A stretch of 64,000 bases of DNA, taken from the NCBI GenBank assembly GCA_009760855.2, contig WPIO01000101.1, positions 1,290,001 to 1,354,000 of the forward strand. Direction: 5' to 3'. Within the stretch, counting starts at the first letter, position 1; every line of letters starts with the position of its first letter. The notes beneath the pieces were generated by a model. That model was not told the DNA's origin, did not search any database, and was given only the letters and a program-made list of their open reading frames with translations. Shown piece after piece: positions 6,940 through 56,259 of the stretch. Source of the DNA: Cristatella mucedo (Eukaryota > Bryozoa > Phylactolaemata > Cristatellidae). The translations under genes and the position numbers were made by a program.

Positions 6940-7205
6940 CTGCCTGCAGCAGCCAGAAGCTCGGCTGCTGCAGGCAGAATCTCGGCTGCTGCAGCCAGAA
7001 TCTCGGCTGCAGCAGCCAGAAGCTCGGCTGCAGCAGGCAGAATCTCGGCTGCTGCAGCCAGAATCTCGGCTGCAGCAGCCAGAAGCTCGGCTGCTGCAGG
7101 CAGAAGCTCGGCTGCTGCAGGCAGAATATCGGCTGCAGCAGCCGAGCTTCTGGCTGCTGCAGGCAGAAGCTCGGCTGCTACAGGCATAATCTCGGCTGCT
7201 GCAGG
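6940..7205. repeat. 21-bp minisatellite, about 12 units
   Basis: A GC-rich tandem repeat with unit close to AATCTCGGCTGCTGCAGSC plus two bases, in variants ending GGCAGAA or GCCAGAA. CTGCAG palindromes recur in each unit. Near 7135-7165 the unit order is locally inverted (GCTGCAGCAGCCGAGCTTCT). The unit is a multiple of three and lacks stop codons in most frames, so overlapping open frames of 88-193 codons appear on both strands. They encode 7-residue repeats rich in Ala/Ser or Cys/Ser. I see this as an array artefact rather than a gene. Confidence 0.9.
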
Positions 7206-11200: not shown

Positions 11201-11746
11201 TAATTAGGACATCAATATCATTAGGAGGCAGAACTAAGTGAAAAAATAGCAAAAGTAACAGACCTTTTGTACATCACCCAGCAAAAACAAAATCTCCATC
11301 TATCAAGAGAATCAATAATCAAGGGTCACTGACATGCACACATTAAGCTAAGACAAGCATTCAAAACCAAGCAAGTATAATGCTTTGGCCAGCTTGCTGA
11401 AGCAAAAATGACGGCAGCAAATATCACATCGGCAGCATCGCCTGCTTCCGTCAAAAAGGCTATCGCAGATCAGTTATTTCTATTTTATTTCCTTGAGAAT
11501 AGAGTTCAAATAATAGCAAGCTTTGAAGTCTACAGCTTCAGAAATCCTATCTAGTCAAAACAGAAAACTGCAAACAGTTCAGCCTGACAGCAGCTTCACC
11601 CAATAACAATATTTAGCACTACAGCAACATAACGACAAAGCGAAAGAGCATGCAGTTGCCCCTGATCCGAAGCAGTAGACTATTGCCGGTCTCCTAGTAG
11701 TAGGCTACCGAAGTTTCAAGCTTAGGTTCAGTTCGATCATCTAGAG
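11201..11746. other. No gene recognised
   Basis: AT-rich sequence with no coding or repeat assignment. It ends in the left target-site duplication (ATCTAGAG, 11739-11746) of the following transposon. Confidence 0.4.
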
Positions 11747-11932
11747 CAGCGGTTTTCAACCTTCCTAATGCCGCAACCCTTTAAATGCAGTTCCTCTTGT
11801 TTTAGCGGTTCCCAACCATAAAACTATTGTGTGCAACGTAGAAATGTGTGCTTTCCGATGGTCTTAGGCGACCCCCGTGAAAGGGTTGTTCGACCTCCAA
11901 AGAGGTGGCGACCCAAAGGTTGAGAATCACTG
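11747..11932. mobile_element. SPIN-like non-autonomous hAT transposon (186 bp)
   Basis: Terminal inverted repeats are CAGCGGTTTTCAACCTT at the left and CAGTGATTCTCAACCTT at the right, read inward (3 differences in 17). The element is flanked by an 8-bp direct repeat, ATCTAGAG and ATCTAAAG, matching both the 8-bp size and the nCTCTAGAn preference of hAT elements. Internal blocks (CCTAATGCCGCAACCCTTTA, CCAACCATAAAACTATT, CCGATGGTCTTAGGCGACCC, GTGAAAGGGTTGTTCGACC) match my recollection of the SPIN non-autonomous consensus across nearly its whole terminal regions. There is no coding capacity; it would need a hAT transposase in trans. Differences between the ends and between the duplications show it is not brand new. 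Confidence 0.9.
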
Positions 11933-12924
11933 ATCTAAAGCAATTCTCGGCTCGGTCAGTCCCCCCCCCCCGTAGATTCAAGTCGATACCCGTTTCGACC
12001 CGATGAGATACAGGACTTGATGACGGCTGGGCAGGAGCCGGCTTCAAGCGGCAATTGTGGATTACGGCTGACTGAATTACAGTGCAAGGATGGAAAAGCT
12101 CACGTTCAGAATGAAACGGATGACAGCTGCCAGACGATGCCGCCAGGTTAACTCAAAAAGGCCAAAATCAGCGAAGCCCTACGTAGAGGTCGATAGCAAC
12201 CCTACGTCAAGATGACCGGCAACATCGCGGTAAGGTAGCAACAGCAAGAAATAAAATGCGGCTATATCCGATCGGCGACTACGATGCGAGTGCTGACCAC
12301 ACGGCGAGGCCAGCTCAGCAGCTAAGCCAGTGAGCTTAGTAGCATGAGCGAAATTATTAAAAGTCCTGCTTACCTTGGCAAACGCAGCAGAACCTGAGAA
12401 GCGGTCACATTGAATACTGGCTTTCGTTCTGATTTTGCCGAGTTGAAGGCTGAGCCACTGAAAACTGAGGTTGATAGGGAACAGATATGACCAAGCAACG
12501 AGACTCAGCCGGCGCCGATTTAGAATGCTCAGCCGCCGAGGCTTTTGCTTGCAGAGAAATAGAGAGTGTGGAGCACTTTGGTCTGTTTGGGTGTGGGCCT
12601 GGAGGGTTCGCCGGGATGCCTCCACCGCCAGTACCGTCAGCTAGGAAGCCATGGATGGTCAGGAGACTGCTTGGTGGCGCTCACTCCCAGTGGCGGGCCG
12701 CAGAGCAGCCACAGTCGGCCACCACTCGGGCGCCTCCGAATCGCGAAAATTGAGAGAGAGAGCGAGAGGACAGAGGACCGGTACTTGTCGCAGAAAGCGA
12801 TCGGCTAGCCAGCAATTCGCTGTCGTGAGCACAGGCAGAGACGACGTTCGGTGAGGGTGTGCAGTGAAGCTGAGCAGAGCAGAGAGCGGGTGGAGCGTCG
12901 GCTAAGCGTGAGCTGACCGGTCAG
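11933..12924. other. No gene recognised; GC-rich from 12480
   Basis: Holds a C11 run (11961-11971). Open frames at 12179-12625 (minus) and 12487-12854 (plus) look like random translation of GC-rich DNA. The next expected DCC exons (rest of FN3-5, FN3-6, transmembrane segment) were searched by eye on the minus strand and not found. Confidence 0.35.
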
Positions 12925-13219
12925 GACGCCATCGTGTAATAGCGGCTGTCGGTCGAGCGATGGTTCGAGCCCAGGCTGTTGTCAAGCCACGTGGCGAGCA
13001 CTGCCGTTGCCGACAGGACAATGGCTTTCAGCTGAAGTGGAGGCGCCAGCTCACCTGCCGACGTGGAGCCGTCGCCGTCTTGGCGGCCTCGGCGACCGGC
13101 TGCTGCTGCTGCTGGTGCTGCTTCGCGGCTTCGTCGCGCGTGACCTGCGCCATTATCGGGGTTCCTTGTCCGGCACCGTTGTAGGCGAAAAAGCTGCAGC
13201 ACGTACGACTGTCCTGCCC
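12925..13219 (-). pseudogene. DCC/neogenin-like exon: end of FN3-4 and start of FN3-5, frameshifted
   Basis: On the minus strand an acceptor (GTACAG) opens at 13219. The translation begins GAGQSYVLQLF and then needs a frame change at a T5 run (13188-13192) to give AYNGAGQGTPIMAQVTRDE, the F-G strands of FN3-4 (vertebrate DCC has AFNNAGEGVPLYE here). A Gln/Ala-rich linker follows. A second frame change somewhere between about 13180 and 13040 restores the first frame for APPLQLKAIVLSATAV and WLDNS, matching the FN3-5 start of DCC (QAVALTHDAV, WADNS). The frame stops shortly after YYTMA near 12925; no clear donor was found there. Confidence 0.65.
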
Positions 13220-13453
13220 CTGTACTCGAACGAGGAAGCAGCACCTGAGAAAAACTCGCGTCAATCGAGGATGTCAGCAGCCTCGGCTGCTGCTGCTTCC
13301 GGCGCACGGCGAAATGAGTCGCTGGAGTCGAGGGCGCCGCCGGCCGCTTGCTTTCGCGGCGTCTTAAATATCTCGGACGGACGTCGAGACCGCTGCTGCT
13401 GCAGCAGCTGCTGCTGCCGCGACGGTGCCGCATCTTCGGCGAAGTGGGCGTAC

Positions 13454-13645
13454 TGAGATTCCTGATGGTATAGTGGCGATCCGTCAGCGCCAGCTCGACC
13501 CAGCGCTCGTCCGGCACGATTTCACCGTGGCCGAGCCGGTATCCTCGGATCATCACGTTTCCGGTTGGCGGCGCCCAATTGATGGCCATTTCGGAGGCGA
13601 ACGCTTTCGCCTGCATGGAGAGTGGCTTCCCGAGTGGCACGCTCT
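13454..13645 (-). pseudogene. DCC/neogenin-like exon: first part of FN3-4
   Basis: A clean 192-bp exon with acceptor GCGAGCAG and donor GTACGC. It joins the previous exon through a split codon (G|AG). It encodes ESVPLGKPLSMQ through INWAPP, MIRGYRLGHG and DRHYTIRNL. The DCC FN3-4 counterpart reads ESQVPDQPSSLH, MSWTPP, VVRGYIIGYG, QRYYSIERL; the RGYxxGxG feature is typical of this domain in DCC and neogenin. This exon has no lesion, and the joined reading into the next exon (NL|RAGQSYVLQL) keeps the domain length of DCC. Confidence 0.75.
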
Positions 13646-27490: not shown

Positions 27491-27631
27491 TGCGCAGAAT
27501 TTCTGTTAATTCTCCATGCATAAGTGGGTAGAAAAAAGCGCACCGAGAAAAAAGGGATTTTTCCATAACCACGTTTATTGTTAAAAGTAAGCTAAAGAAG
27601 ATAGTATATAAGAATTTCTCTCGTTAGCGAG

Positions 27632-27854
<223 letters not shown>

Positions 27855-39940: not shown

Positions 39941-45619
<5,679 letters not shown>

Positions 45620-49495: not shown

Positions 49496-49650
49496 TATAG
49501 AGATAGAGATAGATAGATAGATAGGTAGATAGGTAGACAGACAGATAGATAGATAGATAGCTAGATAGCTAGATAGATAGACAGATAGATAGACAGATAG
49601 ATAGATAGGTAGATAGGTAGACAGACAGATAGATAGATAGACAGATAGAC

Positions 49651-49681
<31 letters not shown>

Positions 49682-49706
49682 CAGATAGATAGCTAGATAG
49701 CTAGAC

Positions 49707-49785
<79 letters not shown>

Positions 49786-49790
49786 GAGAG
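49496..49790. repeat. (GATA)n microsatellite with GGTA, GACA and GCTA variants
   Basis: About 290 bp. The right 60% is nearly pure (GATA)n; the left part has a repeated pattern of GGTA and GACA interruptions (49523-49540 and 49607-49628), showing higher-order duplication. Flanked by GA-rich sequence to 49850. Confidence 0.95.
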
Positions 49791-50590
<800 letters not shown>

Positions 50591-55326: not shown

Positions 55327-55354
55327 TTCCGACTTTGTACGTGTGCTTGTGTGA

Positions 55355-56259
<905 letters not shown>

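Follow-up and report, generated by a model that had tools for sequence, protein, structure and literature searches.

A probable SPIN non-autonomous hAT element and its internal-deletion forms in an invertebrate genome

SPIN (Space Invaders) is a classic example of a transposon that has moved horizontally among distantly related animals. The locus studied here raises the question of whether a short stretch with inverted ends is a copy of SPIN and, if it is, how such an element came to reside in the genome of its host. The window, i.e. the whole 64-kb stretch of DNA that was analysed, is G000:C2:1290001-1354000 of a 572-Mb assembly with 688 contigs, and this assembly was the genome searched.

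The element in the window and its dispersed family

An earlier note had described a 186-bp SPIN-like hAT element with inverted ends, an 8-bp target duplication and two internal blocks resembling SPIN, and each of these parts was recovered. The element occupies positions 11747..11932 on the forward strand, is 186 bp long, belongs to a local 187-bp subfamily and has no coding capacity. Its terminal inverted repeats of 17 bp, CAGCGGTTTTCAACCTT on the left (11747..11763, forward strand) and CAGTGATTCTCAACCTT on the right (11916..11932, written on the reverse strand), are identical at 14 of 17 positions. The flanking target-site duplications, ATCTAGAG (11739..11746) and ATCTAAAG (11933..11940), are of the nnnTAnnn type and agree at seven of eight bases, and both of the previously quoted internal blocks lie inside 11747-11932. 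We read this stretch as a decayed, non-autonomous SPIN element of the Buster group within the hAT superfamily, with a probability of about 0.93. It is the sole SPIN copy within the window. A generic repeat finder reported nothing between positions 11600 and 12100 of the window, because its thresholds miss the ends of the element.

The element is not a chance arrangement, since its sequence is dispersed through the genome. With a 202-bp stretch of the window as the query, at least 40 copies on 32 contigs were scored, these being the best 40 of 1818 first-look candidates, and the 39 copies besides that of the window had E-values from 3.5e-53 to 4.6e-48. All 40 were fetched for the construction of a consensus, which is 187 bp long. 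Divergence, which the earlier note had proposed as a measure of age, has a mean K2P of 0.070 and a range of 0.033-0.140 when taken from this consensus. Because the 40 copies were selected as those most similar to the one in the window, these figures lean low and describe a non-random sample. The copy in the window is the most diverged of them (87.6 % identity, K2P 0.14), and the other 39 range from 0.033 to 0.116. At most 39 of the 40 copies are independent, since L036 and L037 (G000:C653) share one insertion: they lie 54 kb apart with flanks that are 98 % identical over 796 bp, and are a single insertion that was duplicated along with its surroundings in a segmental duplication. A sample of 20 stretches of 10 kb, placed arbitrarily and adding up to 200 kb, contained no SPIN copy; this would be expected if the genome has at most a few thousand copies, but not if the copy number were very high. 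An exact search with one 20-base SPIN block in viral and genomic contig collections returned 0 matches.

The flanks of the dispersed copies show the same kind of duplication as those of the window element. The 8-bp flanks agree at six or more of eight positions in 31 of the 40 copies and at seven or more in 25, whereas these levels are reached in 11.3 % and 3.6 % of cases, respectively, when left flanks are paired at random with right ones; the observed agreement is favoured, since the match between flanks was one of the criteria by which the script set the boundaries. The motif count covers the 27 of 40 copies that are cleanly delimited, having flanks that agree at six or more of eight positions and a first base pair that can be recognised; the other 13 were left aside. 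On either side, 25 of the 27 have T as the fourth base of the duplication and 26 have A as the fifth. The 8-bp nnnTAnnn duplication that marks SPIN as a Buster-group hAT element is therefore found in this family. The nnnTAnnn motif is given as the Buster signature in passages of two papers (PMC3499496, PMC3517528), the first of which also includes SPIN in the Buster family, and the local family shares this motif with TcBuster and other Buster-group hAT transposons as described there (PMC3499496).

Several other features were observed in the window. Two exon-like stretches on the reverse strand (12930-13049 and 13449-13625) resemble fibronectin type III domains of neogenin/DCC, and a further one (40285-40422, reverse strand) resembles COA8, the cytochrome c oxidase assembly factor 8. 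A 21-bp tandem repeat is present in 12.5 copies at 6944-7205, where a 63-bp unit scores too and several frames are open. Long simple-repeat tracts lie at 27629-27853 (GA), 44238-44387 (CA), 49507-49789 (AGAT), 50377-50581 (AGAC) and 55348-55470 (TG).

Identity as SPIN and longer forms

All SPIN comparisons in this work are based on a provisional SPIN_NA consensus rather than a database record, which we take as the reference. It was first used after the local 187-bp consensus had been built. Against this provisional tetrapod sequence, the 187-bp consensus agrees at 79 of 81 positions at the 5' end and at 85 of 85 at the 3' end, so that both terminal blocks are shared; for the window copy, the agreement is 70 of 82 columns in the 5' part and 79 of 89 in the 3' part. 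The inverted repeats CAG(C/T)GGTTCTCAACC and the terminal SPIN_NA blocks by which SPIN was to be recognised are thus both present, as judged by the provisional reference. The local 187-bp form differs from the provisional SPIN_NA in that 145 bp of interior are missing from it and 21 bp in mid-element are private to it, and the fourth base of the local consensuses is T, not C.

The missing interior was found elsewhere in the genome. A query of 150 nt of the provisional interior gave 40 scored matches from 108 candidates, with identities of 83-94 %. This search is not circular because the interior query resembled nothing among the loci fetched earlier: in the window and in all 71 previously fetched loci, its 145-nt core gave chance matches only, the best with an E-value of 0.038. 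Hence, the interior of the provisional SPIN_NA occurs in the same genome as the short form. Twelve of the 40 interior-bearing copies were fetched. Six are complete from end to end and measure 312-327 bp, one (L080) has no recognisable left end, and the remaining five match in their 5' part only within the fetched stretch, four of them sharing a longer interior. In the consensus of the twelve, 299 of 308 ungapped columns are identical to the provisional SPIN_NA, so that the form of about 320 bp resembles it in the interior, while differing by three gaps of 3, 5 and 7 columns (15 in total). The local family also shares its 8-bp nnnTAnnn duplications with SPIN_NA. Over the 5' 219 positions, the twelve copies diverge from their own consensus by a K2P of 0.067-0.261 (mean 0.113). 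Two of the four copies with the longer interior were traced further and measure 642 bp and 498 bp; they had no significant match to TcBuster. When their extra interior was searched for in the genome, all 13 candidates scored as matches. The family therefore comprises at least three forms with internal deletions, which measure 187 bp, 312-327 bp and about 500-640 bp.

Both ends and the interior fit the provisional SPIN_NA, and these sequence comparisons support reading the window element as SPIN itself, beyond the SPIN-like label of the earlier note. Alternatively, it might be another hAT MITE, either of the Buster group or Charlie-like, that has SPIN-like ends by shared ancestry. Another Buster-type family in this genome, 2.7 kb long, does have ends (CAGGGGTGTCCAAC) that loosely resemble those of SPIN. 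However, a SPIN_NA interior was found in the genome, outside the window element, at up to 94 % identity per copy, about 97-100 % of the columns in the alignments of the two local consensuses with the provisional SPIN_NA are identical, and none of the hAT families seen here fits the element better. This alternative is accordingly considered very unlikely.

The host genome and its mitochondrion

As SPIN is best known from vertebrates, the SPIN-bearing contigs could in principle be vertebrate or other contamination of the assembly. The nature of the host can be read from a mitochondrial contig (C688, L071) of 21,008 bp, with 44 % G+C in the part read. The fetched part carries COX3, K, A, N, ATP6, COX1, I, ND3, S and G; an L predicted between ATP6 and COX1 is doubtful (tRNAs by ARAGORN). 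The COX1 frame is open in codes 4, 5, 9 and 13 and continues from ATP6 in code 14. In the vertebrate code (code 2), it is broken by AGA/AGG, which excludes that code. On this ground, a lamprey, which base composition and repeats had initially suggested as the host, was rejected. Reading AGG as Ser in NNMSFWLLPP and ATA as Met in VGMDVDTRAYFT, AITMLLTDRN and AGMPRRYSDYPD fits code 5 alone of these codes, and the ascidian, echinoderm and flatworm codes are excluded by these COX1 residues, which are presumably conserved. The host is an invertebrate, and mitochondrial code 5 is the best fit. The COX1 sequence and the gene blocks COX3-K-A..N and I-ND3-S look, in our estimation, lophotrochozoan, nearest to molluscs, phoronids or their kin. 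Searches for the mollusc haemocyanin domain PF14830 and the annelid erythrocruorin linker PF16915, which were run without a positive control, gave no match.

Besides C688, nuclear copies of COX1 were observed as 16 matches on 12 contigs with identities of 71-98 %. Among them are a copy at G000:C166:4375452-4376472 (94 %) and matches on C549 (91 %), C111 (82 % over 82 bases) and C442 (71 %). C166, C111 and C442 carry both SPIN and nuclear COX1 copies, although only C166 of these three has a long and close COX1 copy, and the matches on the other two are weaker. The presence of invertebrate COX1 copies on SPIN-bearing contigs makes contamination unlikely. In addition, the concern raised in the earlier note that the family might be confined to contaminant contigs is not borne out, as the 40 copies are spread over 32 contigs, the longest of which is 24.8 Mb. 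Contamination is thus judged to be even less probable than a different hAT family, and SPIN is taken to reside in the genome of the invertebrate host.

Entry into the lineage and the source of the transposase

In this invertebrate host, the non-coding SPIN consensus shares about 97 % identity with the provisional vertebrate SPIN_NA. Neutral DNA is unalignable after more than 500 million years, and the similarity between hosts is far above that of neutral host DNA, as far as the provisional vertebrate consensus can tell. If that reference is accurate, SPIN must have entered the invertebrate lineage by horizontal transfer. Vertical inheritance from a bilaterian ancestor, for which no supporting point was found, can practically be dismissed in view of this identity of about 97 % in a non-coding consensus and of the K2P of 0.033-0.261 between the fetched copies and the local consensuses. 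If neutral sequence is assumed to change at 1-4e-9 per site per year, a K2P of 0.07-0.11 would correspond, very roughly, to 17-110 million years.

SPIN also occurs in Lymnaea and in a planarian; a shallow literature search found no paper that states either occurrence. Passages of two papers describe SPIN non-autonomous elements in Rhodnius prolixus and interpret them as horizontal transfer (PMC11614815, PMC6542046). These elements, SPIN_NA_12_RP and SPIN_NA_13_RP, are likewise non-autonomous and hosted by an invertebrate, a likeness that is one of description and not of sequence. Another paper (PMC11008031) refers in one passage to SPIN in squamates, and in passages of PMC3621081, PMC5791352, PMC5331948 and PMC3513734 the name appears solely in the reference lists. 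Each added invertebrate host narrows the possible transfer routes, and if the present host is aquatic and does not feed on blood, an account based purely on blood feeders would be weakened. The complete SPIN_NA copies, the shorter and longer forms and the many datable insertions make the date and number of entries testable. A tentative scenario, which we hold to be somewhat less probable than its opposite, is that SPIN invaded a phylum or class from which it had not been reported before, at about the period of the vertebrate invasions, and bred at least three deletion subfamilies before its transposase died out.

The short form keeps just its two terminal parts, which would be what the transposase recognises. 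An autonomous SPIN copy may have provided, in trans, the transposase that bound these ends and excised the element, which would then have been inserted at an nnnTAnnn site, with repair of the 8-bp staggered gap giving rise to the duplication. Internally deleted SPIN copies may subsequently have been amplified within the lineage.

No hAT transposase with the same ends, for which the earlier note had suggested a search, was found among the elements fetched: Buster-type elements are present in the genome, but the seven that were fetched of 69 do not have SPIN ends. These 69 are the scored matches from 889 candidates to a provisional TcBuster protein sequence, and 65 of them contain stops. This protein sequence had no match in the PDB and is in this respect unvalidated. 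The seven fetched copies (L064-L070) form one 2.7-kb Buster-type hAT family with pairwise identities of 93.5-95.8 %. Its left end is that quoted above in six of the seven, L070 being cut there, and the matching right end is present in all seven; this family shares the Buster group with SPIN and differs from it in its ends. None of the 69 TcBuster matches or of 75 weaker hAT-dimerisation matches lies within 40 kb of an interior-bearing SPIN match. On C653, the short SPIN copy L037 and a member of the 2.7-kb family (L067) are about 2.8 kb apart, as separate elements.

A search of the genome with the hAT dimerisation domain PF05699 scored 150 of 766 candidates and gave 138 matches, of which 55 share one score and represent a very young hAT family with an open frame of 640 aa. 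As a partner for SPIN, this family was rejected, as its three fetched copies (L061-L063) carry TAGGGCTGTACCGG at their ends and do not match the SPIN consensus. Over about 3.1-3.2 kb, the identity among these three copies is 98.4-99.6 %, and one 8-bp duplication, GTGTCAAC, was seen at L063. The family with the 640-aa frame was probably active recently or is still active.
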